This document shows, piece after piece, positions 317 to 63,339 of a stretch of DNA of 64,000 bases (the stretch's first letter is position 1; each line of letters opens with the position of its first letter). The notes beneath the pieces were generated by a model. That model saw only the letters and a program-made list of their open reading frames with translations. It was not told the DNA's origin and searched no databases. Position numbers and translations under genes: made by a program. This stretch comes from Pelagomonas calceolata (lineage: Eukaryota > Sar > Pelagophyceae > Pelagomonadales > Pelagomonadaceae): NCBI GenBank assembly GCA_918797485.1, contig CAKKNE010000001.1, forward strand, positions 124,001-188,000, written 5' to 3'.

Positions 317-338
317 CTAGCGAATGTAACACACTAGG
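317..338 (+). promoter_or_regulatory. CTAG/TGTAA-GACA promoter element, copy 1
   Basis: CTAGCG, then AATGTAAC, then ACACTAGG, followed by AAGCTCTCC. It is a member of the repeated element described in the findings and lies in a divergent spacer: 235 bp from the minus-strand start at 82 and 193 bp from the helicase ATG at 531. Confidence 0.7.
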
Positions 339-530
339 AAGCTCTCCGACTCTGTGTTCAGTGGGCGATACGCGTGCGTGGACGCCTCTGGCTGCCGCAG
401 AATCGCTTCAGGCTACACCCACGCCGTCACCGAGCGCTGCTCCGGTTTGTGGCAATAACGCGAGCGTGGCTGCTTAGGCTGCACTTGCTACACCCAGCCT
501 CAAACGCCGCCGCAGCGAAGGACGGACAAA

Positions 531-2471
531 ATGGCGCAGCAGTCCTTCGCCGCCCTCCGCCCGACGCTCAGTCAAGCAACGTTAGCCTGTCTACGAGATG
601 ACTTCCACTTTTCAACAATGACGCCGGTCCAGGCCGCCTCATTACCTCTCCTCTTGACGCAGAAGGACGTCGTCGCCGAAGCAGTGACCGGATCGGGCAA
701 GACGATTGCGTTCGCCGTCGCGGCGGTCGAGGCTACTGCGCGTCTGGAGAGAGGACCTATTCGTGTTGTCTGCGTTTCTCCAACAAGGGAGCTCGCGGCT
801 CAAACCTCCCGAGTCTTCGCCACGCTGTGCAAAGCGCATTCACTCAACAGCGAGTTGATCACGGGCGGTTCAACAGTGGAGGCGCCGGAACGATGCGATA
901 TACTAATAGCGACGCCCGGTAGACTTGATGACTTACTGTCAAGAGCAATCCTAGACGTTTCCGGTGTTGAATTACTCATTCTAGATGAGGCTGATGTCTT
1001 GTTAGGCTGGGGTTTGCCTTACAGATCGATCGCATCATGAAACGCTTACCTCGACAAAGAAGGACGTGTCTCTTCTCGGCAACGCAAACGCGAGCAGTCC
1101 GCGACTTGGCGAGGGCGGGATTGAGGAACCCCGCTTCTGTCTCGGTCAAGGTCAACTCTGGATCTGAGACGGGCAAGACGCCCACAGAATTAGTTTCGCA
1201 GCACGTCATTTGTCGCGCCGAGGACAAGCTACGATGTGCCCTGGACTTACTCAAAACAGCGAGGAAGTCGTTAGTGTTCTTCGACTCCTGCGCCGCCGTA
1301 GACTTTTTTGGAAGGGCTCTCAAAGCCGCGAACGTGGGAACGGGCCTCCCTATCATAAACGCGTTGCACGGAAAATGGCGCCAAAAAGAGGAGGGCCGTC
1401 TGGGCCCAGTTCCGCGAATGTACTTCCGAGAGGGTCGCGCTGCTGTGCACGGACGTCGCGGCGCTGGGCCTCGACGTGGGACGACGTCGACCTCGTGATC
1501 CAAGTCGACGCGCCGCAAAAACCCGACACTTTTGTCCATCGCGCGGGGCGGACGGCGCGGGCTGGTCGTAGTGGCAGGGCGGTTTTACTACTAGAGCCCC
1601 ACGAGGACGCGTACCCGGAGTTGTTGAGACTGCGGGGGGCCGCTACTACGTCTGTAGAAGTTGAGGTGACAGGTGCTGATGAGTTGAGAACATCTCTGGA
1701 AGAAGCGTGCATCAAAGATCGAGCCATCCTCGAGAAGGGCACGATCGCCTTCACTAGTCATGTGCGAGCGTACTTGGAGCACCGGCTGCCGTACATCTTT
1801 CGGTGGGAGAAGCTAGACGTCGGTCAGTGAGTCAGCGTCCGTTCTGAACTTTTCAGTTGCGTCGACGGCGCGCCGCGCCGCCTCGACGCCGTCTTCATGA
1901 TCACGCGAGAGCCGTGGCCGTGTCGCGACGCTGTCGTTCACGCACAGGCTCGACGGCGCGGCTCTACGCTCTGCTGAAGCTGCCGGACATGCCGGAATTG
2001 CGGAAACGAGCCAAGGCTGCTGGGAAGAGGGGCAAGGACTGGATGACGGCCTTTGCCTTTGAGCGGCGCGACGTCAAGACCGGTACCATAAAATATGCTG
2101 ATCAAAAACGGGAAGCGGCGCGCCTGAAAAGGGTGGCGGCCGAGAAAGTTGTTAGGGAGGAGAAGAAGCTCGCTGCGTCGGCGGCGCCTCCTCCGGTACG
2201 TAAGAGGAAAGACGAGCCGCGGAAAAGAAAAGGGCAGCACGACCAGATCCTCGAGGACTGGAGTGAATTTGCGGAAGATGAACGGCGGCACAAGAAAGCG
2301 CGCAAGAAGAAAATTGAGGAGGACGATCCCGATCTGTTGGCGCTGGAGGCGCTGGACAATCCGTCGAAGAAGGCGGCGGCGTCGCACCAGTCCGTCAAAA
2401 ATTTACGGGGCCAGAAGAAGACTGCCAAGAAGAAATCGGCCGTTTGCGCTTCGGGGAAGAAGAAACGGTAA
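531..2471 (+). CDS. DDX55: DEAD-box RNA helicase, DDX55/Spb4 type (two exons, frame disturbed)
   Basis: ATP-dependent RNA helicase of 60S ribosomal subunit assembly in the nucleolus. In order: Q-motif region (FSTMTPVQAASLP), motif I AVTGSGKT, Ia PTRELA, GG, TPGR, DEAD (LILDEADVLL), SAT (LFSATQT), then the second RecA domain with CTDVAALGLDV and HRAGRTARAGRSG. The Spb4/DDX55 C-terminal region follows (FRWEKLDVG, LLKLPDMPELRK, KREAARLKR) with a Lys-rich tail. Exon 1 is 531-1822, an introner 1823-1947, exon 2 1948-2471. Homology changes frame near 1005, 1366, 1383 and 1479: three single missing bases and one extra G. Three of the four are in or next to short A or G runs. Correcting for them gives about 605 aa, so sequencing indels are more likely than a pseudogene. 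Confidence 0.85.
1823..1947 (+). mobile_element. Introner, family A, in the DDX55 gene
   Basis: 125-nt intron, GT...CACGCACAG|G, phase 1 (GTC G|GC TCG). Its 3' half matches the introns at 33788-33921 and, in reverse, 41798-41940: a GCGCCGCCTCGACGCCGTC block, then GAGAGCCGTGGCCGTGTCGC, then a CGTCGTTC-like block and the acceptor. Its 5' part retains TGAACTT. Protein homology resumes exactly after the acceptor. Confidence 0.8.
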
Positions 2472-2799
2472 GCCCCTGCCGCGCGCCGTCAATCGCCCCG
2501 CCACGAAGCCCGTCGCCACGCCGCCGGCGAAGACGATCCGCACTGGAGCAAGCGCCTTGGTAAGTGTGTTGTGTTATGAGCGGGTCTCCCGGGGCGGGTC
2601 GCGGGGCCGGAGTAGTCGACACGGGTTTTCCAGCCACATTCGTAGCTTTCCCCGACGCTCCGCGTTTTTCCTCCTTAGTAAATTTGTTCTACGGGAGTCC
2701 GTGATCTAGCACGACACGGCCTGCTCCTGTGCACCGGCTTTCCACGAACTGGGAGACGAGGTTTACTGAAATCCCAAGGTGCCAGGCTCAGCCAGCGCT

Positions 2800-3273
2800 A
2801 TGCACGTCCTCGCGGCGGCTCTCGCGGCGGCCCTCGCACTGCGCGGCGGCGTCTCGGCGCAGCCGGTCCGGAACTCGACGCTCAGCCCGTCGCTCAGCCC
2901 GACTGTCGCGCAGACGTTCGCGCCGACGCTGACAATGGCTCCGTCAATCACACCGACGGGCACACCAGTTTGCGAGCCGCAGTGTGAGTACGACTATCAT
3001 CTCACGTCGGAGCGCATGAACAAGAAGATCCTGGCCCGAGTCTACAACTTCTGCTGGATCCTCGGTGGCATGGTGGTGTTCTCGCTGGGCCTGTCGTTCC
3101 TCGGGCACTACATCCGCCACGACCGGAGCCACAAGATGCGTGTGTACTACAAGAAAAACGGAGAGGACTTCGAGGAGGACGACGATCTCGACAAACTAAT
3201 CAGCGAAGGCTTAGTCGAGGAGCTGTCGACGAAACGGCTAGGGACTTTGGCCACGACGGCCGGCTCCGCATAG
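2800..3273 (+). CDS. Small type I membrane protein with S/T/P-rich ectodomain
   Basis: 157 aa. The first ATG gives a signal peptide (MHVLAAALAAALALRGGVSA). A Ser/Thr/Pro-rich stretch of about 35 residues follows (TLSPSLSP, TLTMAPSITPT), likely O-glycosylated, then a short Cys-containing segment (CEPQCEYDYH). One membrane span follows (FCWILGGMVVFSLGLSFLG), then a cytosolic tail of about 60 residues with an acidic patch (EDFEEDDDLD). I recognise no family. The 3' end overlaps the convergent gene at 3147-4070 by 127 bp. Confidence 0.65.
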   Translation: MHVLAAALAAALALRGGVSAQPVRNSTLSPSLSPTVAQTFAPTLTMAPSITPTGTPVCEPQCEYDYHLTSERMNKKILARVYNFCWILGGMVVFSLGLSFLGHYIRHDRSHKMRVYYKKNGEDFEEDDDLDKLISEGLVEELSTKRLGTLATTAGSA

Positions 3274-4070
3274 ATCGCGGCCACTTCGTCGTCAATCGCG
3301 TCCAAATGGTCCATCCTTAATTTCAGGCCCTCCTTCAACCCGTTCTCGACCAACTCAGCTAATAGGTCCGGCGTCTCCTCGTGTAGAGCTGGTTTGAGGC
3401 GCACATGTCCAGCAACGTCGAACTCGGGCTGCGGCTCGTCCCGCTCCAAAACATGAGCTCGAGCCTCGTCGGGGCCGTAGAAGCGCGGTGTGAGGTCGAA
3501 GGACTCCTTTCGCTCTCCTAATACTTCTGCTAATCTAACATTTCCGGCGTACAACGGCTCGTCCTCGTCGATGGGCCGGTGGTCTTCACCGGGCAACCTT
3601 ACCGCTTCGCACTCGCCGTCGTGGGGCTCGTGGTTGCCCTGAAATTCTAGGTGGAATTTGTTCTCGCCCGTGGACGTCGTCTCGGGGCCGTCCGGTCTCA
3701 CACCACTTCTACCTTCGTCGAAGGGCGTGAAGTAGGTCGCCGCGTCCTCGTCGTGTTCTTCGGGCCACAATCTTCTATTCTCTTCGGCCGGGCGCTGCCG
3801 TTCGGGCGCTGAAAACGCTGAACCGAACAGATAGCCGCTCAGTGATTCGGTCCTACCCAGCCGCGCCGCCCGCGCGTCGGCGTGGGACCAGGCTTCGCCG
3901 TCGATGGGCGCGTGCTTCGTCTTCGGCCGTCGCGTTGTGCGCCGCCGGCCGTGGCTCCCGGACGTGGCGCTCGGCTTGTCGTGCGCGCCGTCGACGTGCT
4001 GCTTGCGCGACCAGTTGGGGGCGTGGTGGGCCTCCATGGTGTTGACGTGCCGCGCCGCGGTCTCAGCCAT
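3147..4070 (-). CDS. Uncharacterised hydrophilic protein
   Basis: 307 aa, open from ATG 4070-4068. The N-terminus is basic and His/Arg-rich (HGRRRTTRRPKTKHAP); the rest is acidic and polar with no membrane span (EEHDEDAATYFTPFDEG, LAEVLGERKESFDLTPRFYG). No family recognised. Its last 42 codons are antisense to the coding end of the membrane protein at 2800-3273 and turn low-complexity (serine-rich, LSRSSSSSKSS). The true end may be earlier if there is an unseen intron, or the two CDSs really overlap. It is divergent from the exonuclease at 4564 across promoter element copy 2. Confidence 0.55.
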   Translation of the reverse strand: MAETAARHVNTMEAHHAPNWSRKQHVDGAHDKPSATSGSHGRRRTTRRPKTKHAPIDGEAWSHADARAARLGRTESLSGYLFGSAFSAPERQRPAEENRRLWPEEHDEDAATYFTPFDEGRSGVRPDGPETTSTGENKFHLEFQGNHEPHDGECEAVRLPGEDHRPIDEDEPLYAGNVRLAEVLGERKESFDLTPRFYGPDEARAHVLERDEPQPEFDVAGHVRLKPALHEETPDLLAELVENGLKEGLKLRMDHLDAIDDEVAAIYAEPAVVAKVPSRFVDSSSTKPSLISLSRSSSSSKSSPFFL

Positions 4071-4341
4071 CGTGGTTTTGGTGTGAATGCTCTCTGGTCG
4101 AGTTTTCTCGCCTCCTCGCGCCCGGCGGCCCGCGGTTTCGCGCGAGGACTAACGCCTACCTATCAGCGCTTGACGCGAGAGGCGTGAGACGTCCCTCACG
4201 CACGTCCCGAGGGCAGGCGAGGCTGCCAATCACGAGGCTGTGGATTATGCTTGGCAATGAGTCCAGCGCCATCAATCCAAAGGCCCCTCCAGATCAGTCG
4301 CACGACTCCGAGGCCCCTTTTATCAATCTGAGCGCGAGGTT

Positions 4342-4368
4342 TTGCTAGTGTGTTTATACGCCGCTAGC
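4342..4368 (-). promoter_or_regulatory. CTAG/TGTAA-GACA promoter element, copy 2
   Basis: On the plus strand TTGCTAGTGTG, TTTATACG, CCGCTAGC, which is the reverse orientation of the consensus. It lies in the divergent spacer between the starts at 4070 (minus) and 4564 (plus), 272 and 196 bp away. Confidence 0.75.
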
Positions 4369-4563
4369 TAACGCATACGTCGCGGTGCAAGCCAGCGTAG
4401 CGGCCGCCCGACCCAATTGAGCTGTTGCACGCCTTGTACACATCCCCTTTGATCGCACCTTTGCTGCGCGTGCCGAACTGTGGTCCCTGAAGTAGCAGGG
4501 AGGGGAGAGCCTCGCGTGACAGCCACTGGCTCTGGCTCACGTCGAGGGCCGCCCGCGCCCCTC

Positions 4564-5472
4564 ATGTTGCTCCGCGCCGCGGCCAGGCGCGCGCCCCGGA
4601 GGACGCAGCAGCGCACCTTCGTCGTCGCCGCGCGAAAGCAACCGCAGCAAGCTAGAGCGTACTCCTCGCCGAAGCCCCCGCATTTGACCAGTAAAACATT
4701 ACCGAGAGGCAGGATCGGCTTCGTCAATGGCATCCGGCAGCTCCAGAAGAGCCTCTTGAACGGTTTTGACCAGAGACCGACGCTCTCCGAACTCCTGCCG
4801 CCGGACGCCTCAATCACGGACGTCGACAAAGAGCACATAAAAAACTTGCCGCGCTTCGACGCCGCCGAGGACGCGGAGGTTCTACTTTGTGCTTCCGAGA
4901 CGGGCTTCGACCTCGGCGTCAAAAGATTACGGAAAGCGTTACAAAGTGGCGACTCGTCCCTCACGCTCCACGGCAAGGAGCTCCACTGCCTCGGCTTCGA
5001 CACGGAGCGGACGCCGACCTTCCGACTAGGCCAGCCCGAGCAGCCCGTGGCCTGCCTGCAGCTGGCCAGTCACGACCTCGTCGTGCTGTTTCTGCTGAAG
5101 AACATGAGGCATATACCGGCTTCTTTACAGGACCTGTTGGAGGACCCGGGCGTGCTGAAAGTAGGCGTGGCGTTATCCGAGGACACGAATGCGTTATCGA
5201 GGCACGCGCCCGGCTTGACTGTTCGTGGGCTTGTTGATCTGGCTCCTTTAGCAGAAGCGAGGTTTCCCTCGCTGACACGACGAGGCCTGCGGGGCTTAGT
5301 GGCCTCACTCGGTGGTCGACGACTATCAAAACACCAGTCGACGGCTTCCTGGGGCCAGCGGACGTACACGCCGGCGATGATCCGGTACGCGGCGAACGAC
5401 GCGCTTGCCGGGTTGTTTTGTTTCGGGCGGATCCTGGGCCACGACCGGGAAGACGAGCGGAAGGTCGCGTAA
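4564..5472 (+). CDS. Mitochondrial DEDDy-type 3'-5' exonuclease
   Basis: 302 aa. The first ATG in frame gives an Arg/Ala-rich mitochondrial presequence (MLLRAAARRAPRRTQQRTF). The exonuclease domain (RNase D/WRN-exo fold) has ExoI FDTERTPTF (D and E for metal binding), ExoII KVGVALSEDTNALS, and ExoIII RYAANDALAGL (Y and D), so the catalytic DEDDy set is complete. It would trim nucleic acid 3' ends in a two-metal reaction; the substrate is not deducible. Single ORF, no intron needed. Its neighbour on the right is convergent. Confidence 0.75.
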   Translation: MLLRAAARRAPRRTQQRTFVVAARKQPQQARAYSSPKPPHLTSKTLPRGRIGFVNGIRQLQKSLLNGFDQRPTLSELLPPDASITDVDKEHIKNLPRFDAAEDAEVLLCASETGFDLGVKRLRKALQSGDSSLTLHGKELHCLGFDTERTPTFRLGQPEQPVACLQLASHDLVVLFLLKNMRHIPASLQDLLEDPGVLKVGVALSEDTNALSRHAPGLTVRGLVDLAPLAEARFPSLTRRGLRGLVASLGGRRLSKHQSTASWGQRTYTPAMIRYAANDALAGLFCFGRILGHDREDERKVA

Positions 5473-7977: not shown

Positions 7978-10347
7978 TCAATAACTAAACTTGAAGATTA
8001 CTAAACGGCCCCCGAACCTTGCACCGAGAGCTGCGCGCGCCGCCCCCGCCAGTACGCCGCCGCCGTCGCGCGCATCGGTTGGGCACGTCTCTTGTGCTGG
8101 CATCTTCGCGGCCAGAGCCTGTCCAACCTCCGACGCGTCCACGTGACCCACGAGCCGCCCACCACCAGAGACAACAAAGACCCGGTCCTTGTGGTGCAAG
8201 TCGAACAGGAAGCACAAATGCGACAGCGTCGCCGACGGCGCGCACCGCGGCCAGGCATCATCAATAGCAGCGGTAAAGTCACCTTCCATCGCACTCGCTA
8301 GATCGGCGACGCGCATGACGCCGACGAAGACCCCGTTCCGGACCACGGGAATCACGACGTGCGTCGCGCTGTTCAGCGTGTCCTGGACGTTTGCCGGCGG
8401 GTGGTCGTCCACGAGAGCCAAACAAGGCTCCTCGTAGGCCTTTGTGCACTCGACCACATCGCTTACTGTCTTCGAGAAGTTTGCCGCGGCATGGATCGCC
8501 GGCCAGTGGGGCAGGGCTTTGAGTCGGGCGATCATGGCGTAGATGTCAATTTCTACTAACTGACCGGCGCCCAACCCGACGACGCACGCGAACAGCACGG
8601 GTATCGAGTAGGACAACTGGCCCGTGAGCTCCGAGATGACGACGCCGATGGACAGCTTGCCCGTGACAGAAACGCTGAACGCGGCGGCGCCGACGATGGC
8701 GTAGCCGCCGGCGGGGGACAACGGACATTCTCCCGTGACGGACGTCGTTAATGTCCTCAAGGCTTCGCCCACCAATCTTCCGATCCCGGCGCCGATCGCG
8801 AACGACGGCGTCACGAGGCCGTTCGACACGGGAAGGCCAATACACAGCGTCGAGAAGAAGAACGTGAAGACAATGAACAGACATAGAGAAGCCCCAACAC
8901 CACCGTCGCGCTCGTCCCACCTCGACCGCTGGTGCAGTTTCGGGTTCGCGTCCTCGCGCAGCGGAAATTCCGAGAAGAGGTCGTCCATGACCTCGCGCGT
9001 CCCCAGCAGCGCGAAGTCGCCGATCCAGCACGCGAAGAGGCCACTGGTCAGAGCCACCAGCGCCGAGAAGCCGAGGTTCGTGCCTAGAACTATTTTCGGG
9101 ATCGCGGATAAACCCTTCATCTTCAGAGCGGCACACCGCCGCCGCAGCCCCACGAAAGCTGTAAATAATGTCACGAAGAAGCCTCCCAGGATGCCACACA
9201 CCGCTGATAACAGTAGGAAGATCCAGACCTCCCAGTGCTTATAGGACACCGTATCAAAGTGCGGCGAGAACGCCCCGTAGGACTTGAACGCCAACTCCCG
9301 CGACGTGAACGCCCCGACCGTCGCGCATAGGAACGCGCCCCAGTAATGAGAAGTAGCGTAATAGTTCGCCGTCGCCTCGATAGAAAACAAAATGCCGCCG
9401 ATGGGCGCGCCAAACGCAGCAGAGACACCAACAGCGGCCGCCGCGGACAGCATCTGGTTCCTGAACAATTCGTTGGTGTGCCTCGCGAAGAAGGGCACGC
9501 GCATCAGTAATTCGGCTAAAATAGCTGCGGTATGGATGAAAGGCCCCTCCTTGCCGATGGGTAGGCCCGCGCCCAATAAAAGCACAACGCCAAGCACTTT
9601 GGCCACTAACGTCCTCGGTTCCAAGAAGCCCGGTATCGAGAACCCTGCGAGGATCGACTTGACTTCCGGAATGCCACTTCCCGCGGCAATTGGGGCGATT
9701 CTTTTCGTGAGCTCGACGGCGATTAACGTGATACATACTCGCAGGAAAATGTATAGAATAACACCGTAGTCCTTCTGGGACCCTCCTGTTCTTAACACAC
9801 CATTGACCAGTCCTTTCCTCAGGTTCGCGGCCGTTTCGTCCATGACGAAAGCTGAAATGGATGTGATTACGGCGAGTACGACGAGAAACAACCAAAAATA
9901 ATTGTGCGCCCACGCCGAGGCGATTCTACGTTTTATTGCAGGTAAGCGCGGCTTCCGTGTCGTCGACCAGGGCTCCGCGGACCGCGACTTTTTCAGTTTA
10001 AAACGCCTTCGGAAGCCGCCGTAGACGTCGCCCTCGTCCTGATCCACGGTCATCTCGGGGGCTGCTTGCGGAGAGGCCAGGCTCGGGCTAGTTCCGTTTT
10101 CTGGAGGCGGCGCGTCGATGGCCATAGATTGACGATCCGTTCTCCGAGGCGACGGCTGCCGCGGCGGCGGCGGCAACGGCTGCGTCGGCGGCGCGGCGGT
10201 CGTGGTTGGCGCCGCCTCGAGGTCGACGGTCGCCATTTCCGGCTGGCTGGTGCTACTCTCTGGCATGGCCACTGGGGAGGGTGGAGGGCTGCCCTCGGTA
10301 TCACTCGTGCTGCGCCGCGGCGGTGCTTGGGGTGAGTCGTCGCTCAT
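7978..10347 (-). CDS. CLC: CLC-family chloride channel/antiporter with C-terminal CBS region
   Basis: 789 aa in one ORF. A Pro/Ser-rich cytosolic N-terminus of about 130 residues is followed by the CLC membrane core: selectivity motif GSGIPEVKS, GKEGPFIH with the gating glutamate, and GLPVSNGLVTPSFAIGAGIGR near the third anion-binding loop. A CBS-domain tail of about 200 residues ends the protein (ATHVVIPVVRNGVFVGVMR, DRVFVVSGGGRLVGHVDAS). It moves chloride or another anion across an internal or plasma membrane; channel versus H+ exchanger is not decided. I chose MSDDSPQ (10347) over the upstream in-frame ATG at 10404, because the promoter element at 10406-10430 abuts the latter. Confidence 0.9.
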   Translation of the reverse strand: MSDDSPQAPPRRSTSDTEGSPPPSPVAMPESSTSQPEMATVDLEAAPTTTAAPPTQPLPPPPRQPSPRRTDRQSMAIDAPPPENGTSPSLASPQAAPEMTVDQDEGDVYGGFRRRFKLKKSRSAEPWSTTRKPRLPAIKRRIASAWAHNYFWLFLVVLAVITSISAFVMDETAANLRKGLVNGVLRTGGSQKDYGVILYIFLRVCITLIAVELTKRIAPIAAGSGIPEVKSILAGFSIPGFLEPRTLVAKVLGVVLLLGAGLPIGKEGPFIHTAAILAELLMRVPFFARHTNELFRNQMLSAAAAVGVSAAFGAPIGGILFSIEATANYYATSHYWGAFLCATVGAFTSRELAFKSYGAFSPHFDTVSYKHWEVWIFLLLSAVCGILGGFFVTLFTAFVGLRRRCAALKMKGLSAIPKIVLGTNLGFSALVALTSGLFACWIGDFALLGTREVMDDLFSEFPLREDANPKLHQRSRWDERDGGVGASLCLFIVFTFFFSTLCIGLPVSNGLVTPSFAIGAGIGRLVGEALRTLTTSVTGECPLSPAGGYAIVGAAAFSVSVTGKLSIGVVISELTGQLSYSIPVLFACVVGLGAGQLVEIDIYAMIARLKALPHWPAIHAAANFSKTVSDVVECTKAYEEPCLALVDDHPPANVQDTLNSATHVVIPVVRNGVFVGVMRVADLASAMEGDFTAAIDDAWPRCAPSATLSHLCFLFDLHHKDRVFVVSGGGRLVGHVDASEVGQALAAKMPAQETCPTDARDGGGVLAGAARAALGARFGGRLVIFKFSY

Positions 10348-10405
10348 CTTGATTGCTATTTCTGGCTGCACCGGCGGCTGATTCCCGCACGTGACCCTTC
10401 GCATT

Positions 10406-10430
10406 TTCTAGTGTCTTACCGGCCGCTAGC
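10406..10430 (-). promoter_or_regulatory. CTAG/TGTAA-GACA promoter element, copy 3
   Basis: Plus-strand reading TTCTAGTGTCTTACC then GGCCGCTAGC. Divergent spacer: 59 bp upstream of the CLC start at 10347 and 212 bp upstream of the SANT gene ATG at 10642. Confidence 0.8.
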
Positions 10431-10641
10431 TCATTGCGCAGCGTCCGGCTCCTAAAGAGGACCCAGCGTGGCCCTATCGTCGCTCAGCAGGAAGCTCGGA
10501 TAGCTTCCTTCTCGCGCCACAATCCTTGCGAGGGACGAGCAGCTGGGTGGTAAAAAGACCAAAAAAAGGCTGCCCCTGCCCGGCACCACTGCTCGCGAAT
10601 CGCACGAGTGGACGCAAGAAGCACTCCGACGAAGATAACTC

Positions 10642-11100
10642 ATGGCTACGGCTGCCGCTGCCGTCGCCACGCGGCTGGCATGTAATGGTATTGAGGACCA
10701 GATGACCAAGGACCTCGGCGACGACTGGCTCTGCAGCCCCCCGCCGCCACCGGGGCTCGCGACGCCTGACGAGAGCGCCCGCCCCCCCGAGGCTTCGACA
10801 GCGTGGTCCGACGAGGCCGAGGCCGTGCTGCGCACCGAGGTCGCGGCGCAGCGCCACAAGTTCGCGGACGTGCACTGGGGTCGCGCGGCGACGGCGGTCC
10901 GGCGCGCGACGGGCTACGTGCTGACCGCCCAGGAGGCGCGGGAGCGGTACGAGACCAGTGATAGGGAGGTGTCGCTGCTCGGCGCCGCGCGGTCGCGGCC
11001 GTTCTGGCGGCGGCGGCTTTCTCGGCGCGCCGTCGTCGCGACGCCGGTCGAAGAGGATGACAAGAGGCGTCTTTCCGGGGGTAGTAAGGGAAAAACGTAG
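10642..11100 (+). CDS. Small SANT/Myb-like domain protein
   Basis: 152 aa. Residues about 53-105 carry a single Myb/SANT-like helix set (AWSDEAEAVLRTEVAAQRH; VHWGRAATAVRRATGYVLTA; EARERYE) with spaced aromatic/hydrophobic residues. Such domains bind DNA or histone tails. A Pro-rich linker lies before it (SPPPPPGLATPDE) and a basic tail after it (RPFWRRRLSRR), consistent with a nuclear protein. It is the plus-strand partner of the CLC gene across a bidirectional spacer. Confidence 0.55.
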   Translation: MATAAAAVATRLACNGIEDQMTKDLGDDWLCSPPPPPGLATPDESARPPEASTAWSDEAEAVLRTEVAAQRHKFADVHWGRAATAVRRATGYVLTAQEARERYETSDREVSLLGAARSRPFWRRRLSRRAVVATPVEEDDKRRLSGGSKGKT

Positions 11101-11104
11101 CACA

Positions 11105-11130
11105 GAGCTAGCATATCGACACACTAGCGC
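11105..11130 (+). promoter_or_regulatory. CTAG/TGTAA-GACA promoter element, copy 4
   Basis: GAGCTAGCATATCG, then ACACACTAGCGC, then TCTCC. It lies between two same-strand genes, right after the SANT gene stop and 180 bp before the giant gene's ATG. This shows that the element also serves single promoters. Confidence 0.65.
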
Positions 11131-11309
11131 TCTCCTTGGAGCAAAGCTCTTCAGGCCGCTGTGCTGCCTCACACGCACACAGCCGAGTTACGAATTACGT
11201 CGATAATTCATCACTTTTTATCGTACACCACGCCATAACAACTGCGAAGTCTTGGGCCGCGTAGGAGAGCTGTGCACAACAGAGACCCGAAGGCGCACTC
11301 CACCAAAGC

Positions 11310-21548: not shown

Positions 21549-21573
21549 GCTAGCGGTGTAAGACACTAGCAAG
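21549..21573 (+). promoter_or_regulatory. CTAG/TGTAA-GACA promoter element, copy 5
   Basis: GCTAGCGG then TGTAAGACACTAGCAAG, one of the best copies. Divergent spacer: 193 bp from the minus start at 21356 and 130 bp from the plus ATG at 21703. Confidence 0.85.
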
Positions 21574-25191: not shown

Positions 25192-25220
25192 GAGCTAGCG
25201 GGTTGTAAGACACTAGCAGC
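25192..25220 (+). promoter_or_regulatory. CTAG/TGTAA-GACA promoter element, copy 6
   Basis: GAGCTAGCGGGT then TGTAAGACACTAGCAGC. Divergent spacer: 163 bp from the minus start at 25029 and 238 bp from the plus ATG at 25458. Confidence 0.85.
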
Positions 25221-27109: not shown

Positions 27110-27132
27110 GCTAGTATCTTAATGCCGCTAGC
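27110..27132 (-). promoter_or_regulatory. CTAG/TGTAA-GACA promoter element, copy 7
   Basis: Plus-strand reading GCTAGTATCTTAA then TGCCGCTAGC. Divergent spacer: 159 bp from the selenoprotein start at 26951 and 200 bp from the TLDc gene ATG at 27332. Confidence 0.8.
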
Positions 27133-29085: not shown

Positions 29086-29107
29086 TCTAGCGACTGACAT
29101 ACTAGGA
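29086..29107 (+). promoter_or_regulatory. CTAG/TGTAA-GACA promoter element, copy 8 (divergent in sequence)
   Basis: TCTAGCGACTGACATACTAGGA: both CTAG half-sites are kept, the centre is altered. It sits upstream of the minus-strand membrane protein and just beyond the 3' end of OGG1, at the usual distance (about 174 bp) from a start codon. Confidence 0.5.
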
Positions 29108-36516: not shown

Positions 36517-36540
36517 GAGCTAGCGTACAACGGCACTAGG
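36517..36540 (+). promoter_or_regulatory. CTAG/TGTAA-GACA promoter element, copy 9
   Basis: GAGCTAGCGTACAACGG then CACTAGG. It lies between the two tandem ankyrin genes, 180 bp upstream of the start at 36337, so it serves a single minus-strand gene. Confidence 0.6.
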
Positions 36541-36568
36541 GCGTAGCGGGTTGCTTATAGTTAGTACA

Positions 36569-37541: not shown

Positions 37542-37564
37542 GCTAGTATCGTTATACGCTAGTT
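37542..37564 (-). promoter_or_regulatory. CTAG/TGTAA-GACA promoter element, copy 10
   Basis: Plus-strand reading GCTAGTATCGTTATACGCTAG. Divergent spacer between the ankyrin gene start at 37406 and the RFC4 ATG at 37760, 136 and 196 bp away. Confidence 0.7.
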
Positions 37565-38731: not shown

Positions 38732-38757
38732 GTCGCGTAGGTAGGGTACATACATTC

Positions 38758-48417: not shown

Positions 48418-48517
48418 CGTCGACAGCCGTGCTCAATTCGGTTCCAACGGATGTCTGGGATGTAGTACTGCTGCAAGAGCGACTGATAAAAACAAATTGC
48501 TAAGGTAAGGCAGCCGT

Positions 48518-48544
48518 AGCTAGCGGCATGTAAGGCACTAGCCA
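48518..48544 (+). promoter_or_regulatory. CTAG/TGTAA-GACA promoter element, copy 11
   Basis: AGCTAGCGGCA then TGTAAGGCACTAGCCA. Divergent spacer: 101 bp from the LRR gene start at 48417 and 270 bp from the DUF268 gene ATG at 48814. A further TGCTAGCTCC follows at 48550. Confidence 0.8.
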
Positions 48545-48813
48545 GGTTTTGCTAGCTCCCGCCGCTGAAGCTGGAGCTGGGCTAACGCCCCAGCGTGCCG
48601 CGGCATAGGCATATTCTTAAAAAACGCAGCTCCGAGCGGCCACCAGCGTGAGAAGCGTCAGTTCGCCCCTGTTTTCGAGTTGGAAACTTTGAAGCAGCCT
48701 TGCGCTGAAGCTGAGTCATATATCGGTCTACAGACGCCACGGCATTTGTGACGGCTCACGGATAAGCTGGTCCGGTGCCGCCGCAACAGCTCCGTCGAAA
48801 GAAACGAAGAATC

Positions 48814-50273: not shown

Positions 50274-51708
50274 CTATCTTACCGTGGTGTCCCCCGACGC
50301 GTCGTCCGCGTCTTCGTCCTCGTAGTCCTCCTCACTAGAATAGTCCTCGGGGTGGAGGAGCCGCCCGACGCCGGACTCCGACGACTCGAGGCCGCCGCCG
50401 CGAGTCTCGAGGAGCGCGATGAGGGCTCTCAGGTTGCCTTCGTCGTCGGCCGTCACGCGGCCCCAGCCACCGCCCTCGCCGGCCAGTTCCCACGCGACCG
50501 TCCTGAGAGCCGGGCAGCCCTTCACGAGCTTGAGCACTTCCGCGGCGCCGAGCGCCGGGACGCACGACAGATTCGCGGCTCGCAAACTCGCCGCGCACCT
50601 CCCCTTCAGCACGACGTCGACGACGGCGGGCGTGAGCGCGTCCATCGACGCGACGTTGAGCTCCGCGAGGCCGAAGCTCGCCAGGACCCGGAAGCACTCG
50701 TCGCCGTCGTTGCCGCAGTGGGGGAGGGAGATACGCTCGAGCGTCGGCCGCGTCGCGTGTAGCGCCTCGTAGAAGGGGCGACCGAGGCACATCAGCGACG
50801 GCAGGGCGAGCTCGACCAGCGCCGGACAGGCGCGTACAAGTTCGAGGATCAAGTCCGGACTGATCGCCGTCCTACCCATCCTTAGCGCCACGAGCCGCCC
50901 GGGCAGCGGCGACGCGAGGAGCCACTCGACGAGCGCCAGACTCACCACGCAAAAGTCCAAGTCGATCTGGTCCGCATTCGTACAGGTATGCAGCGCGCGC
51001 TCGATGCGGTCGAAGCGCGACGGGATGACGTGCGACCCGTGGCCGTGGCTGAAGAACTCGAGGCAGCGCAGGTTCGGGAACGCGGCCGCGTAACTCTGCG
51101 CGAAATCAACCAGTGTGGCGGGGGCGTTTGTAATTCCTCACAATCTCACAATCATTCTCGAGCACAAGCGACGTCGACGCGATGTTTTGCGCACTGGCCC
51201 GGACCTCGACCGCGCTGCCGTTGCACGGTAGCTTCACGACCTCGAGCAGCGGGCACGCTTGCGATATCTTGGTGGACAGGTCCTCGACGTCTGCCGTCTC
51301 GATGTTCGGCACGTCGATGACGCAGACGAGCGTTTGCAGCAACGGGCACGCGCGGCACATCTCGAGGAGGCGCGCGTCCGTGACGGCGCAGCGGTAGAGG
51401 CACAATTTCTGGAGACCTCCCGCCGTTTCCGTGATGGTAGATTGCAGCGCGGGGAGGGCCGCGTCGGCCGCGCAGAAGCTGACGAGCTCTCTCGCCCCGC
51501 TGCCGAAGATTCTTCCTTCCGCCTCGATGTTGCGCGGCTCGGCCAGCGCGTCGAAGATCATCTTCGCGAAGCGGTCGTCGGTTTGTATGGAGCGATGCAC
51601 TGCAGCGCTCGAGGACTTGTTGCACTGTCTTAACGCAAGCAGATCGTTGCGCGGCAAGTACTTTGCAATTAGGGGCACCAGCTCTTCAGGCAGGTCTGTG
51701 AGGGACAT
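50274..51708 (-). CDS. F-box and leucine-rich repeat protein (two exons)
   Basis: 462 aa; exon 1 51708-51142, 46-nt intron, exon 2 51095-50274. The N-terminal F-box (MSLTDLPEELVPLIAKYLPR + NDLLALRQCNKSS) would bind SKP1. LRRs follow (LQKLCLYRCAVTDARLLEM; LEVVKLPCNGSAVEVRASA; LVALRMGRTAISPDLIL; LVELALPSLMC; LERISLPHCGNDGDECFRVL; LAELNVASMDALTPAVV; LRAANLSCVPALGAAEVL) and an acidic tail (YSSEEDYEDEDADDASGD). Probable substrate-recognition subunit of an SCF E3 ligase. Both exon lengths are whole codons and the intron junction joins CEI to SYAAAFPNLRCLEFF, a regular LRR. Confidence 0.8.
51096..51141 (-). mobile_element. Short intron with family B introner end
   Basis: 46 nt, phase 0, GTGAGGAATT ... 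CACTGGTTGATTTCGCGCAG. The 3' word CTGGTTGATTTC is shared with the introns at 33288 and 33529. It may be an internally deleted introner. Confidence 0.65.
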
Positions 51709-51939
51709 GATTGCTGTTTTCGTGCGTTTTTTGGCGCGGAAGCGGTGCGGTGGACTCGATGCGTCTTCCAACGTGCTTGGAGTCAAGAACGCTTGCCTCT
51801 GGTGAGGTGCTAGGACTGAATTAGGACCCTTGCAACCGGAGACGTTTTCGGACTCGTCTTTTATGCGATTTCATGGCTAGTCTCGGGAACGTATTACTCC
51901 CGAGTTTAATTTTTCGCAAGTTAAATGCGATCCTCTGTC

Positions 51940-51966
51940 TTGCTAGTGTCTTACACGACGCTAGAT
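51940..51966 (-). promoter_or_regulatory. CTAG/TGTAA-GACA promoter element, copy 12
   Basis: Plus-strand reading TTGCTAGTGTCTTACACG then ACGCTAGAT. Divergent spacer: 232 bp from the F-box gene start at 51708 and 184 bp from the SDA1 ATG at 52150. Confidence 0.85.
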
Positions 51967-52149
51967 AAATATTGCTCTGCCTTTGCAAAGCGCTTGACTT
52001 AGGCGTCCGCACGGCTTTAGCTCAGGCTCCAAGCTGCGCAGACACATCAGAAGGCTGCGGACGACCGCTCGTGCAAGCACGAAGTGCCAGGTCGACCGGT
52101 GCGCCGCGTGAGGCAAAACAGGCGATATCGACAAAAAACGCACGTACAG

Positions 52150-54294
52150 ATGAAGGTCCGCCAGCACTCCCTCCCGGTGCTCCAAAATTTATTGAAGAGG
52201 GACCCGTCCGCCTACCGCGAAGAGTTCGAGGCCATCTGGAGGCAGTACCTCGCGGCATTGGAGGCGTTTCGATTGGGAGGCGCGTCGCAGAAGAAGACGA
52301 GAGGGGACGACGAAAGAAAATTAGGGGATCTGGCGACCTTCGTCGCCCACTGCGGCGTCCACTACAAGGAGGCGTCGAAGCGGTTCGCCACGGACCTCGT
52401 AGCACTCCTCAAGGACCGCTGCGCGACGTTACAGCCGGATTTACGATTACGTCTAGCGCAAGCTGCTGCTTTAGCTCGAAGCAAGGGTTTACTGGATCCC
52501 CTGGTCCTAGCTGATCTTTGTTTTGAATTAATAAGAAGAGTACGAGATAAAGCCTTAAGGCAGTTCCTCGCGGACCACGTGGTCCGCGACTGCAAGAAAG
52601 CTTCGAGCGGCACGTTAGGTAGGAACCTGAGACGCTGCGTCTTCAAGGCGGCCGAGGATCAGTCGGAAGCTAATTCTGCCGCATCTGCAAGAGTAGCGGT
52701 AGACGTCCTAGTAAGGTTGTACGCTTGTGGATCGTGGACCGACGCGGCCACAGTTAATTGTTTAGGAAGGTGCGCCGCGGACGAACGAGCACGAGTCGCT
52801 CTCGGGGCGGTCTACTTCTTCCTAGGTGTTGATAGAGCACCAGTGTTAGATTCCGAATCGTCTGAAAACGAGAACGAGGGCGAAAAAGGTAGAGACCTGA
52901 AAAATGCTCTCAAAGCGGTGGACGAGCACAAGCACTCGAAGAAGACGCGGGCGCGCGCGCGGCAGACGAAGCGCGCGAAGAAGGCCGCCAAAAAGAAGGC
53001 CCTCGGGAAGTCGGAACGGGCCGAACCAAAGTTTCCCGCGATGCAGCTGCTCGACGATCCCCATCGCTTGTGCGACGCGTTGTTAGCTCGTGCAAGAAGG
53101 CAAGTGGATGCTTTTGAACAGAGAGTCGCTCGGTTAGATTTATGTAGTCGCGTGGCCTGTACGCATCGCCTGCAGCTCGTGGCGTTTTATTCCTATATGA
53201 GGAGATACCTGAAGCCGTCGCAAGAGCAAGCGCCGCGACTCCTAGTTTTGTTCGCGCAAGCGTGCCACGAGCTGGTGCCGCCGGACGAGCTCGTACCCAT
53301 TATTCGACACGTCGCCGACGCGTTCGTTTCTGATCGGAACGCTTCCGAGGCCATGGCGCTGGGTATCAATGCCTTGAGGGAGGTATGTGGACGGTGCCCC
53401 GCCGTGTTGGACGAGCCGGAGATGCTTGGACTAGTTAGAGATTTAGCCGCTTACTCAAAACATAGGGACAAGTCGGTTGTGGTCGCTGCGAGGGGCTGGA
53501 TCAATATTGTAAGAGAGCACCACCCCCAGCTCCTGCAGAAGAAGGACCGCGGTAGAGATAAAGCTCGCTCGAAGGCGACACCGTTGTCGTTCGGCGCTGA
53601 CGTTGCTACGTCATCAGTGCCGGGCGAGGACCTGTTGAGGTTGTACGAGCGGGGGCAGTTGCCCGAGGAGTTCGAGGACGTCGTGGAAGCGTGCAACGAC
53701 CTGGAGGGCGGCGGCGATGGCTGGGTTGATGTGAGTGATGGGGAGGAAGACGGTGCGGCGGCGGCCGACAATGATAAAGACGGCTGGGAGGACGCCGACT
53801 CCGGCTCCGATGATGAAGAGGACGAGGACGGCTGGGTCGACGTGGACCAGGGTTCCGATAGTGACGCCGAGAGTAATGCTGGAAGCGACGACGACGGCGA
53901 CGCCGACGAGGAAGAGGAGGTAGCGCCCGCCGCGCGCGTGCTGTCGGCGGAGGACTTCGCGCGCATCAAGCTGCTCAAGGCGCGGGCCGACGAGCTCAAA
54001 GGCACGGCGACAAATCGGGGCCTGCTGTCCGGCGCCGACATCGTCCCAGAAGCCGTGAAGAGAAGGACGACCGTCGAAGAGCGGAAAGCACGCCAAGTCT
54101 TGGACCGAGAAAAGTTCCAGCTGAAGACGCACGCCGGCGGCAAGACCAATAGTGAAAAGAGACGCACGAAGAACTACTTGATGGTGCAGAAGAAGAAGTC
54201 GCGGCTGAACGGTCTGAAAAAGAGGAAGTTGGGGAGCGGCAAGGGCGGCAAGCAGCAGCTCGGGCGGGACAAGCGGAAGCGGCGGCGGCTGTAA
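52150..54294 (+). CDS. SDA1: SDA1 ribosome biogenesis protein
   Basis: 714 aa, single exon, close to the usual size. N-terminal NUC130/SDA1 region (HSLPVLQNLLKRDPSAYREE; LATFVAHCGVHYKEASKRF; LRLRLAQAAALARSKGLLDP; RNLRRCVFKAAEDQSEANSA), then the charged centre with KKTRARARQTKRAKKAAKKK, the SDA1 core (FPAMQLLDDPHRLCDALLA; KLDLCSRVACTHRLQLVAF-like; DELVPIIRHVADAFVSDRNA; LAAYSKHRDKSVVVAARGWI), a long acidic stretch (GWVDVSDGEEDGAAAAD), and a C-terminus ending GGKQQLGRDKRKRRRL. It acts in nucleolar 60S maturation and export. It forms a second 60S-assembly gene in the window beside DDX55. Confidence 0.92.
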   Translation: MKVRQHSLPVLQNLLKRDPSAYREEFEAIWRQYLAALEAFRLGGASQKKTRGDDERKLGDLATFVAHCGVHYKEASKRFATDLVALLKDRCATLQPDLRLRLAQAAALARSKGLLDPLVLADLCFELIRRVRDKALRQFLADHVVRDCKKASSGTLGRNLRRCVFKAAEDQSEANSAASARVAVDVLVRLYACGSWTDAATVNCLGRCAADERARVALGAVYFFLGVDRAPVLDSESSENENEGEKGRDLKNALKAVDEHKHSKKTRARARQTKRAKKAAKKKALGKSERAEPKFPAMQLLDDPHRLCDALLARARRQVDAFEQRVARLDLCSRVACTHRLQLVAFYSYMRRYLKPSQEQAPRLLVLFAQACHELVPPDELVPIIRHVADAFVSDRNASEAMALGINALREVCGRCPAVLDEPEMLGLVRDLAAYSKHRDKSVVVAARGWINIVREHHPQLLQKKDRGRDKARSKATPLSFGADVATSSVPGEDLLRLYERGQLPEEFEDVVEACNDLEGGGDGWVDVSDGEEDGAAAADNDKDGWEDADSGSDDEEDEDGWVDVDQGSDSDAESNAGSDDDGDADEEEEVAPAARVLSAEDFARIKLLKARADELKGTATNRGLLSGADIVPEAVKRRTTVEERKARQVLDREKFQLKTHAGGKTNSEKRRTKNYLMVQKKKSRLNGLKKRKLGSGKGGKQQLGRDKRKRRRL

Positions 54295-55290: not shown

Positions 55291-55463
55291 CGCTGCGATG
55301 GCGTGCGGCTGCGGCGTCACAGTGCAATCGATTTGTGAGAGCTCACACGTCGCCTAGCGAGCGAAGCTGGTTGAACCAATGATGCCGTGCGTAGAGGTAC
55401 TTTCGGCGACGCGCAGCGAGCTGTAGACCAGCGCTTGCGGCTCGACTGTCGGCAAGAGCAAGC

Positions 55464-55493
55464 GAGCTAGCGGCCTGTAAAGACACTAGCAAG
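55464..55493 (+). promoter_or_regulatory. CTAG/TGTAA-GACA promoter element, copy 13
   Basis: GAGCTAGCGGCC then TGTAAAGACACTAGCAAG and CTCTCC, an almost perfect consensus. It serves one gene only (the methyltransferase, start 55290, 174 bp away); the other side is the 3' end of the FG-GAP gene. Confidence 0.85.
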
Positions 55494-55613
55494 CTCTCCT
55501 ATTCCCGCGGGTCGAGACTAACTAATTTACCGCATACGATTCCAATTCACAGAATCGCAAGTTTATTTGGGGCATCTAAGGAGGGTGTCCTGGGGCCGGC
55601 GGCGCCGCGCGCC

Positions 55614-57161
55614 TCAAGGCGGGCCCGGCGAGCCGCACTCGGTGCAGCCCAGGGTCTCGTCCGGGAGGCACTCGACCGGCTCGCCCTCGGCGCGGAACGA
55701 GTAGACGTAGATCGCCTTCCCTTCGAAGACGGGGATGAATATCTCGGTCACGCCGTCGGCGCCCGTGCGGTCGTAGCGCGTCTCGACGGCGCCGAGCGTC
55801 GAGATCGTCACGCCGGGCCGCACGTCCGTCTGCGTCTTGCACGTGTCTCCGAACTTGACGTTTATGTCGAAGATGACGTGGTCCTCGTACTCCAGGTCGC
55901 CGGTCACCGGACCCTCGACCGGTGTGAGGATCCAGACCTTCCGGCTTCGTCGCCGCCGACGACGATGCAGGGGCGCGTGGAGGGGTCCGCCTCCTGCGCG
56001 CGGCTCGGGTAGAACGCCTTCGCCTTGCCGGGCGCGAGGCGGCTCGAGCGCCGCCTGCCACGACGGCTGCGGAAAGATCCCGTCGAAGAGAATCGTCGTC
56101 GTCAGGCGTCCGCGAACAGGTCGCCGGCCGGCTGCGCGATCGCGTAGACCGCGCCCGCGATGGATTCGGGGAAGGCTGGGCAGTTGTCTTGCTGGTGATT
56201 GGTCGCCAGCCAGCACATCTAACTTCCCGTCGAGGTCCAGGTCGACGATCTCGATGCCGAAAGGCCTCCCTCGACCGTCCGAGATCGTGGCGCTCCGGAT
56301 GTTGTGGGCGTCCGTCGCGGCCCAGCCGCCGCCGGCGGCGCCGTAGAGCGTGATCTCGCTGCCGAAGAAGACGCGTCGCCACGATCTCCTCGGTGCCGTC
56401 GCCATTTAAGTCCGCCGCCTGCAGGAAGATGTCGGGGGCGGCGGGCCAGGGGCCAATCGCAGGGGCCGAGACGAGCACGGTCTCTTCCCAGGGGAACGCA
56501 TCCGTGCCCGGGTTCCGGAACCAGACGAGCTCGCCCCGGGTGTTCGCGTCCGGCGGCCCGGCGGGCCAATTCGACCGCACCGTCACGACGTCGTCGTCGC
56601 CGTCGCCGTCCATGTCCAAATACACGACGCGGTGGTAGAACCAGTCGCCGCCGCCGGAGATGTTCTGCTCCTCATGCGTGGCCATGTTGATGACGCTGAT
56701 GCGGCCGGGCCGCGCGCCCGGGTTCAGGAAGCCCTGGCAGACGACGAGCGCCTCGAAGGGGAAGACTCCGGCCGGCGCCAGCTCGGCCTCGTTGGGCCAC
56801 TTGGGCACCGTCGGTCCGGTCGGCTCGGTGAGCACCTCGACGGGCACGGGATCAACAGTATATGGGAACGACGCGTCGGCGTCGAGCATCGCACGCGCCA
56901 CGAGGTCCGGGCTGAAGAAGTCGAACGTCGGCGGCGGCGGCGGAACGGCGGCGGCGGTGTGAACACGACTTCCTGCAGATTGAAGAACGACGTGATCGTG
57001 AGCGCCTGGCCGTCCGCGTACTCGTCGACGTGCAGGAACGCCGGATTAAACTCGAGCTCGAGCACGCCGCGCGAGTAGAGCTCCGGACAGCCCTCCTTCC
57101 GCTCGTAGGAGCTGAAGCCGCTGGTGAGTCCTAGCGCTAAGGCCGTGAGAATGAGACGCAT
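55614..57161 (-). CDS. Secreted FG-GAP/VCBS-repeat protein, frame broken at several points
   Basis: About 515 aa if frame steps are ignored. Signal peptide (MRLILTALALGLTSGFSSYE), a Pro run (FTPPPP), then FG-GAP/VCBS blades: VVYLDMDGDGDDDVVTVRSN, LQAADLNGDGTEEIVATR, VDLDLDGKLDVLA, each with the D-x-D-G-x-x-D Ca2+ loop of beta-propeller repeats, and a C-terminal beta region (HVIFDINVKFGDTCKTQTD; RTGADGVTEIFIPVFEG) with Cys residues (CLPDETLGCTECG). Homology changes frame at least five times (around 56944, 56383, 56195, 56105 and 55935-56040). This is more than in any neighbour, so it may be a real pseudogene or a poorly read stretch. Likely extracellular binding or adhesion protein. Confidence 0.6.
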
Positions 57162-59353: not shown

Positions 59354-59377
59354 TCTAGCGCCTTAGACAGCAAACGA
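59354..59377 (+). promoter_or_regulatory. CTAG/TGTAA-GACA promoter element, copy 14 (weak)
   Basis: TCTAGCGCCTTAGACAGCAA then ACGAG: the first half-site, the TTAGACA core and GCAA are kept, the second CTAG is lost. It sits in the 490-bp divergent spacer (59181-59670) between aconitase X and the TECR-like gene, 174 bp from the start at 59180; the rest of that spacer shows nothing else. Confidence 0.4.
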
Positions 59378-61845: not shown

Positions 61846-61847
61846 CG

Positions 61848-63019
61848 TCACGATAGCCCCGGATCGAGGGACGCCGCCGGCCGCGGCTCGGGCGGCGGCG
61901 CGGGCGGCGTCAGTAAGGCAGCGAGGCCTTTTGGCGCCGGCTTCGCAGAGGCCGCGGCCATCTCTATCCTAGCTTCTGCCCTTGCCGCTTTGCGCTCCAG
62001 ACGCGCAGGCAGGCGCGCGACCGCCGGTAGAAACGACCGCGCCGCGGTGTACATCCCAGAATTCCGATCGGCCACGTCCGCCACGATCGTCTCGGACAGC
62101 GCCAAGGCAAGGCGGTCGCGGTCACGCCGACGAGCACGGCGCCGCCGGCTGCTCCTCTATCTAGAGCACAAACGACCGCAACAGTTGCCGCACAGAACGC
62201 TCCCAGAGTCCGCAGCACGACCCAGTGGCCCGAGGGGAAGCGCGGCCCCGCGCCCGCCGCCCGTCGTTGCGCTCGGTATTCATGCAGTCTTTCCAAGTCC
62301 GCGCGAGCGCCCAGAGGCGTCGGCGGACACCGAGCGTCAGCCAGAGCCGCGGCGCAGTCCGCCAGCGGGTCGACGAAGCGCTGCTTCTCATTTGACTTCG
62401 GACGACGCCCGCGCCGCTGCGTGTCGTCTATGGACGCCTCTAGTCGTCGACAGTGCGCGGCCGCCGCCGCCAATGCTCTTTGAAAGTAGACTTCCGTCTC
62501 CGGCGCATCTAAATCGTTGAGGCCGCCTTCCAATAGTTCGGCGGCGGCGAGTTCCGCCCCGACCGCATGTAATTGGGTTTCTTGCCGCGTCATCGCGGCT
62601 CCTAAAGTCGACCCCAGTAGAACGGAGTATAAAACACCCAACACAGCCAAGGCGGCCTGCAGCGGCTCGGAACTTACATTTAGTTCCTCCGTGAGCTTGT
62701 GGGCGTACTTCGAGATGGCGTCGGCCGTGACTAGGTATAGAGAGCCGCAAACAACGCCCAAAATGACGCACCACGCTAAAACGTTCACGACCGCACCGGC
62801 CGCCGGTTGACCGCCATCTAACTCCTCCAATTCGTTTTCAGTGCGTAATAAGGCTTCGCTCCGATCGAAAAAGTCTCCATGTCGCGCGCTGTCGCTGTTC
62901 GACGCTCCGCCGAGCTTCCGTATGACGTTCGAGGCGCCGCGCATGGCCGTCACGCCGCCTCTTGGTAAGTCCAGGGCTGCTGCGACGCCCATCATCCAGA
63001 GGTACATGCTGCGTCGCAT
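61848..63019 (-). CDS. Four-span membrane protein, DUF4239/bestrophin-like shape (one apparent frameshift)
   Basis: 390 aa after one missing base near 62107. Signal-like start (MRRSMYLWMMGVAAALDLP), then spans GAVVNVLAWCVILGVVCGSL and ALAVLGVLYSVLLGSTLGAA, a long soluble loop with helices (VGAELAAAELLEGGL; YFQRALAAAAAHCRRLEASI), then HWVVLRTLGAFCAATVAVVC and AVLVGVTATALALALSETIV, and a tail ending LLTPPAPPPEPRPAASLDPG. Two spans, a loop with 'LYSVLLGxxxGxAxxRQExQL', and two more spans resemble DUF4239 (bestrophin-like) proteins; this is a shape match only. Divergent from REV1. Confidence 0.55.
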
Positions 63020-63314
63020 CGTCGACGACGACTGCGCGCGATGATGATGATGCAGGCCTGTGTGCTTGCTTTGCACAGCACACGTCGGCTGGCGTTTTGT
63101 ACACTTTCCGCCCCGTTCAAGCACGGTCCTCAGATGCCTTTCGACTGATTAATCGTTCGAATATCTATGGTTACGTCCACTGGAGGCAGCTTTGCATGAC
63201 CATGTGCATCACACAACCTCCACCACTCGTGCGCCCGGCGTGCCGCTCAGCTCTCTTCTTGCGAGACGGATACTTGCATCCGCAGCAAGAATCTCACGCC
63301 CGTGCAAGGCCTCG

Positions 63315-63339
63315 CTTGCTAGTGTCTTAGGCCGCTAGC
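63315..63339 (-). promoter_or_regulatory. CTAG/TGTAA-GACA promoter element, copy 15
   Basis: Plus-strand reading CTTGCTAGTGTCTTAGGC then CGCTAGC. It lies in the 522-bp divergent spacer (63020-63541) between the membrane protein start at 63019 and the REV1 ATG at 63542, 296 and 203 bp away. Nothing else is seen in this spacer. Confidence 0.85.

Follow-up and report, generated by a model that had tools for sequence, protein, structure and literature searches.

A two-part element of about 24 bases recurs 14 times in the window analysed here, a 64,000-nucleotide stretch of the pelagophyte alga Pelagomonas calceolata (contig CAKKNE010000001.1, positions 124,001 to 188,000), and each time it lies in a gap between divergent or tandem genes. 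Its position, its centring between genes and its recurrence in other contigs support its being a general promoter-region element common to functionally unrelated genes. Our favoured explanation, to which we give a probability of roughly 0.6, is that the element is an asymmetric bipartite site for one abundant sequence-specific protein acting as a general promoter factor.

Sequence of the element and its excess over chance

The alignment of 27 copies, 14 from the window and 13 from six contigs of the metagenome-assembled genome (MAG) 'Spirochaeta sp. MED672' described below, gives the consensus AGCTAGCG-K-variable-TRAGAYACTAGCAA. The left half can be written AGCTAGCGk, with counts of A (19), G (21), CTAG, C (27), G (25) and then G (13) or T (10). 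The right half can be written TrAGAyACTAGCAA, with T (16), A (22) or G (5), A (25), G (19) or C (8), A (23) or G (4), C (21) or T (6), A, CTAG, C (18), A (16) and A (18), and the spacer between the two is flexible. The pattern used to pick the copies fixes both CTAGs, the YA preceding the right CTAG and, following the left CTAG, C/T and then G/A; when CTAG alone is imposed, 14 out of 14 window pairs show the consensus form. Beyond AG...CAA there is little conservation, and none is clear past the element borders over the 27 copies.

The window contains 125 CTAG sites, and pairs of these separated by 15 to 19 bases number 15, against about 1.2 expected by simple arithmetic. All but one of the 15 pairs (14/15) are copies of the element, the remaining pair being located at 49504. 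Allowing up to three mismatches, TGTAAGACACTAGC, one half of the pattern, has 10 matches in the window, compared with a mean of 1.95 and a maximum of 7 in 100 dinucleotide shuffles. The two-half pattern with one mismatch returned 14 matches versus 0 to 3 in ten first-order shuffles, and the strict pattern CTAGCG-N5..10-RYACTAG returned 13, versus none in 57 and one in 3 of 60 order-3 random windows. Of 15 places listed for the repeat by an initial annotation of this DNA, 14 carry the element, and the one at 59354, marked there as weak, has a lone left half. This place stays below 9 bits with a window-trained model, in which the 14 copies score 26.2 to 40.8 (the model being trained on those same copies), and below 10 bits with a model from other contigs only, in which they score 22.0 to 38.4.

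The initial annotation had also described a near-palindrome of two half-sites with nearly constant spacing, often continued by CTCTCC, and our alignment departs from this description on each count. The left half is CTAGC, followed by G in 25 of the 27 copies, and the right half is YACTAG. The CTAG-to-CTAG distance ranges from 15 to 19 in the window (commonest 16 or 18) and from 14 to 19 over the 27 copies (16 and 18, nine copies each; 17, five; 19, two; 14 and 15, one each). CTCTCC is found next to only three of the 14 window copies (317, 11108 and 55467) and is not conserved, while the full form originally given, CTAGCGG followed by 2-4 bases and TGTAAGACACTAG, has a single exact match. The dimeric factor proposed from that form retains some ground, as the halves are inverted relatives via GCTAGYG, but each half has its own distinct sequence and the spacing covers six lengths, unlike a homodimer palindrome with equivalent half-sites at fixed spacing. 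Such a pattern is more readily explained by an asymmetric bipartite site than by a rigid homodimer.

AYACTAG, the right-half core, occurs 12 times in the 64-kb window, and all 12 occurrences are within element copies; stray half-sites may thus be avoided.

Near-inverted ends would also be found in remnants of small mobile elements, either miniature inverted-repeat transposable elements (MITEs) or introner-like units, inserting into open promoter DNA. Introner-like intron lengths are given for Pelagomonas in the part of PMC9481584 consulted, and direct matches of 4-6 bases are present near the borders of 12 out of 27 copies, against about 16% of shifted borders at the same loci. These border matches, however, vary in offset and length, unlike a target-site duplication of constant length, and a unit of about 24-29 bases whose inner spacer is variable and in which nothing beyond the halves is conserved does not resemble the conserved interior of a MITE or introner, which makes this origin very unlikely. 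Equally hard to credit, if not more so, is a hairpin formed by the RNA of a 5′ leader or another transcript. Pairing between GCTAGYG and CRCTAGC is feasible, with a sixth pair that is G-U on one strand in 27 out of 27 copies, but none of eight pairs, flanking or inner, shows covariation (p of 0.26 or more by shuffling) and compensatory changes are not seen. Moreover, the orientation relative to genes is free, and Rfam at its gathering threshold returns two tRNAs only in the window.

Placement relative to genes

Genes in the window were delimited with a home-made periodic Markov coding model, for which open segments of this same window served as the training set, resulting in 53 coding segments and in 15 divergent, 23 tandem and 14 convergent gaps. 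Ten copies are found in 10 of the 15 divergent gaps and four in the tandem gaps, and there are none in convergent gaps or in coding segments (probability of zero copies in coding DNA by chance: 2e-7). This agrees with the initial annotation, which had the copies in non-coding and never purely convergent DNA, with ten clear ones between head-to-head genes. A loose pattern applied to the window and 10 fetched contigs gave 32 matches: 15 in 28 divergent, 11 in 49 tandem and 5 in 14 contig-end gaps, none in 26 convergent gaps and a single one in 105 kb of coding DNA. The latter, in contig L090, is without G after CTAG and was dropped from the later set of 27 copies, from which sites at 7636 of L088, at 2127 of L111 and those of L093 to L096 (contigs described below) were also left out.

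Those flanking genes that match Pfam have mixed, unrelated functions, as had been noticed at the outset, and a copy adjoins 24 of the 53 coding-segment starts of the window. A long, information-rich site would suit a regulon for a special gene set, but with 24 of 53 starts the element is too common, and so mixed a set of flanking genes leaves a regulon scarcely credible. Concentrated in promoter gaps, seldom present in coding or convergent DNA (with modest p values within window non-coding DNA, 0.02 for divergent and 0.07 for convergent gaps) and not confined to one functional class among the genes with a Pfam match, the element is distributed as sites of general regulatory factors are.

Within 14 divergent gaps, copies are near the centre, at relative positions of 0.39 to 0.67 (Kolmogorov-Smirnov p about 5e-7 versus uniform). 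Considering one ATG per gene, chosen by us as a proxy for the start, the copy-to-ATG distance over 36 gene sides has a median of 196.5 and a range of 91-446, and 31 out of 36 are within 130-304; two gene sides with no ATG option were left out. Copies in tandem gaps are oriented with the gene in seven cases and against it in four.

These data bear on the core promoter or insulator element that the initial annotation had in mind. The idea is supported in the wide sense of a general promoter-region element, and finds no support in the strict sense of a core promoter element that, like TATA or an initiator, fixes the transcription start at a set distance on one side; we regard the strict form as unlikely. 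What speaks for it is that the ATG distance is tight on the left-half side (18 genes, median 196.5, median absolute deviation 13) and looser on the right-half side (18 genes, median 207.5, median absolute deviation 62), with a label permutation p of 0.0008 (0.0013 with another ATG rule). Two later left-side genes, however, are outside the tight range, at 115 (the degenerate copy of contig L111) and 304 (L096), and the left/right asymmetry is not borne out by these few held-out cases. A single copy per divergent pair, about midway and mostly 130-304 bp from either ATG, along with free orientation in tandem gaps and no other clear signal at a fixed position, also speaks against the strict form. 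A boundary or insulator separating head-to-head genes, with no opening of promoters, would agree with the 10 of 14 window copies located between divergent genes, but 4 of 14 are in tandem gaps, upstream of one gene, and none is in a convergent gap, where a boundary could serve too; this we consider distinctly improbable.

Word searches for a second promoter signal at a fixed position near the copies returned none that stood out clearly. The top promoter words, around CGATGGCGT, resemble start-codon context; TCTGAGG is near a few copies and is not specific; and GCACT and CAGCC, at 140-160 bp from the copies, were too weak to count as a start-site signal, the best p being about 8e-5 in a set of hundreds of tests.

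Recurrence in other contigs

A scan of a genome-contig collection returned 59 loci, including contigs of the MED672 MAG (NZGT01; G001). Five of these loci were followed, namely L014, L025 and L032 (G001), L015 (G002) and L033 (G003), and the others were judged by composition and score only. In the MED672 MAG a looser pattern gave 12 matches, all on six contigs. Of its 183 contigs, 144 were fetched, and eight of the 144 are like the window in composition, with CpG observed/expected of 1.25-1.34 and tetranucleotide correlations with the window of 0.82-0.89. Of these eight (L087-L092, L098 and L111), six have the motif and two are without a strict match, L111 having a degenerate copy. Ten of their open frames have Pfam matches, for instance a DHHC palmitoyltransferase, an importin-like protein and a photolyase, and the eight contigs are read as putative misbinned eukaryote DNA.

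A model from the 13 MAG copies only finds 14 of the 14 window copies at 22.0-38.4 bits, the next window site being at 14.2. Conversely, with a window-only model, six of the eight eukaryote-like contigs yield 12 sites scoring 21.2-40.0 bits, with weaker ones at 19.8, 18.8 and 17.8; in the 136 other MED672 contigs (2,066,803 bases) this model reaches 20.9 bits once and otherwise at most 15.6. Copies in the eukaryote-like contigs are placed as in the window. In a tblastx comparison of MAG contigs against the window, similarity resembled composition noise among the matches listed.

Near element copies, L088 (about 299-435 and 2050-2172) and L089 (about 5295-5313) have a common stretch, CCGCCCACTA...GCACYGTAACA, the exact pattern of which has no match in the window.

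High scores were also obtained for L094 and L095 (G003; 40.1 and 34.7 bits) and for L096 (G002; 35.1 bits, only slightly above the chance ceiling). The tetranucleotides of all three are closer to the bacterial contigs of the MAG than to the window; L096 passed the CpG filter. The copy of L094 is 150 bases upstream of the ATG of a SIR2-domain frame. That frame (271-1359, plus strand) abuts an isocitrate dehydrogenase-type frame (1167-1916, minus strand) in a contig of bacterial make-up; we take the start of the SIR2 protein to be zinc-finger-like and the isocitrate dehydrogenase to be bacterial-looking. Pfam matches in the other contigs are an MgsA-type ATPase (L095), an MgtE transporter (L096) and a Cu monooxygenase, DUF3526 and a peptidase M1 (L093), and in L095 and L096 the frames adjoining the copies are without a match in Pfam. 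The L095 copy (near 3268-3889) is close to the contig end, and the L093 site (26.7 bits) is at one. We would guess that L094 and L095 are chimeric assemblies with eukaryotic ends.

Viral contigs were scanned as well. A first pattern gave 11 single-match loci, 10 of which either do not exceed a GC of 0.46 or differ from the window in composition, and a second pattern, which fits 6 of the 14 window copies, gave two single-match loci with GC of 0.51; both sets were put down to chance.

Proposed mode of action, known promoter factors and other features

Central placement, free tandem orientation, unrelated flanking genes and the lack of a clear second fixed signal are the reasons for reading the element as the site of a general promoter factor that serves either side. 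Given the variable spacing and the two distinct halves, the putative protein that binds it would be a heterodimer or a single protein with two flexibly joined DNA-reading modules. Once bound, it may keep the promoter nucleosome-free, and polymerase would then initiate on either side, at up to about 200 bp from the element; with the promoter opened on either side, one copy could serve two head-to-head genes. A more far-reaching proposal, which we offer tentatively and would rather bet against, is that a lineage-specific pelagophyte master promoter factor reads this unusually long element at about half of gene starts and defines most bidirectional promoters in an alga that ranks with the commonest of the ocean, replacing a definition based on TATA or an initiator. 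At the window density (14 per 64 kb), a genome of 32.4 Mb would carry about 7,000 copies.

Several points weigh against a general promoter factor. The gene model is our own and had this same window as its training set. Within window non-coding DNA, the divergent excess is of modest strength (p 0.02), and the lack of copies in the 14 convergent gaps does not reach significance (p 0.07). Five of the 15 divergent gaps in the window have no copy, so the element is not required at every promoter, and protein binding and chromatin opening are steps that we infer from sequence. A reversed-pattern control matched the MED672 MAG more often than the pattern did (27+39=66 vs 9+3=12), and for this reason the raw count there is not evidence. 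Six of the eight eukaryote-like contigs were found via the motif, so that copy density in them is biased, and the two found by composition share one degenerate copy (L111, 17.8 bits). Finally, among the remaining loci of the huge collections scanned, all picked by the pattern, the window-only model scores isolated sites at up to 32.8 bits in bacterial contigs that look unrelated and at up to 31.7 bits in viral contigs; such stray high-scoring sites are as expected for collections of this size.

Two-part sites are also known for yeast Abf1. In the parts of the yeast literature consulted, the Reb1, Abf1 and Rap1 sites work in a way akin to what we propose, being promoter-wide, function-blind and tied to nucleosome-depleted regions; the algal element is longer than these general regulatory factor sites. 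We know of no likeness in sequence between the element and any of the three. In animals, the sites of ZNF143, NRF1, M1BP and DREF are common at housekeeping and bidirectional promoters; the element can be likened to them in working, while their consensus sequences differ from it. Among stramenopiles, the oomycete initiator (Inr) and flanking promoter region (FPR) motifs form a core promoter at the start site, and other oomycete motifs serve life stages. The algal element, central between genes, is set apart from the oomycete motifs by its position. Oomycete promoter motifs are treated in the consulted parts of PMC3597505 and PMC11267843. For AaV, a giant virus of Aureococcus, the part of PMC5917014 consulted gives an early promoter motif that is an A+T-rich octamer, AAAAATGA; it belongs to a pelagophyte system but is viral and, in its A+T-rich composition, unlike the element.

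The GC content of the window is 64.2%, and the consulted part of PMC9481584 gives 63.6% GC, 32.4 Mb, 16,667 genes and 0.45 introns per gene for Pelagomonas calceolata. No description of the element was found among the titles and abstract starts listed from one open-access library, a coverage outside which most subscription papers and bioRxiv preprints fall. A 13-base string of its core is present, as the reverse complement, in the consulted part of one open-access paper, on diphthamide. The words 'motif' and 'promoter' do not occur in the main texts of PMC9481584 and PMC13284251, and pelagophyte promoter signals appear to be undescribed in the literature searched. According to the consulted part of PMC13284251, pelagophytes count among their number some of the sea's most abundant eukaryotes. 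An element that is long, common and easily recognised would aid the annotation of genes and their starts, would be a bait for finding its factor and would offer a test of how bidirectional promoters are defined in a compact eukaryotic genome.

Table 1. Element copies in the window and the place holding a lone left half-site. Distance is CTAG to CTAG; bits are scores from the model trained on MED672 MAG contigs.
Feature	Coordinates	Strand	Distance	Gap	Genes and remarks	Bits
Copy	317..337	+	17	divergent, 85-519		31.3
Copy	4345..4367	-	19	divergent, 4057-4549	3'-5' exonuclease-domain gene on right	33.5
Copy	10408..10429	-	18	divergent, 10245-10682	CLC channel gene on left	37.8
Copy	11108..11127	+	16	tandem, 11058-11310	left half CTAGCA	25.7
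Copy	21550..21569	+	16	divergent, 21358-21735	RNA cap methyltransferase-like and RRM genes	36.9
Copy	25195..25216	+	18	divergent, 24999-25523		33.8
Copy	27111..27131	-	17	divergent, 26938-27320		35.1
Copy	29087..29105	+	15	tandem, 28899-29180	upstream of minus-strand segment 28471-28898; adjoins 3' end of OGG-like gene	22.7
Copy	36520..36539	+	16	tandem, 36210-36955	ankyrin-repeat gene downstream	22.0
Copy	37543..37562	-	16	divergent, 37308-37710	replication factor C-like gene on right	26.1
Copy	48520..48541	+	18	divergent, 48014-48844	DUF268 gene on right	35.2
Copy	51943..51964	-	18	divergent, 51580-52189	F-box and SDA1 genes	38.4
Copy	55467..55489	+	19	tandem, 55321-55637	methyltransferase gene downstream	34.5
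Copy	63319..63338	-	16	divergent, 63009-63544	bestrophin-like and BRCT genes	37.0
Non-copy	59355..59374	+		divergent	lone left half-site	below 10 (below 9 with the window-trained model)

A 212-base repeat (36111-36322 and 37189-37400, 75% alike) is located at the 5′ end in each of two adjacent segments on the minus strand, and both of these segments have an element copy upstream, in opposite orientations. Elsewhere in the window, two tRNA-Trp genes (44445-44514 and 44749-44821) are 304 bases apart and 98% alike over 50 bases. A tRNA-Pyl called by ARAGORN at 62117-62200 is within a coding segment on the same strand, is not found in Rfam at gathering threshold and is probably false. An inverted repeat is also present, with arms at 33785-33849 and 41879-41943 (95% complementary) and at 33876-33918 and 41799-41841 (93%), about 8 kb apart.

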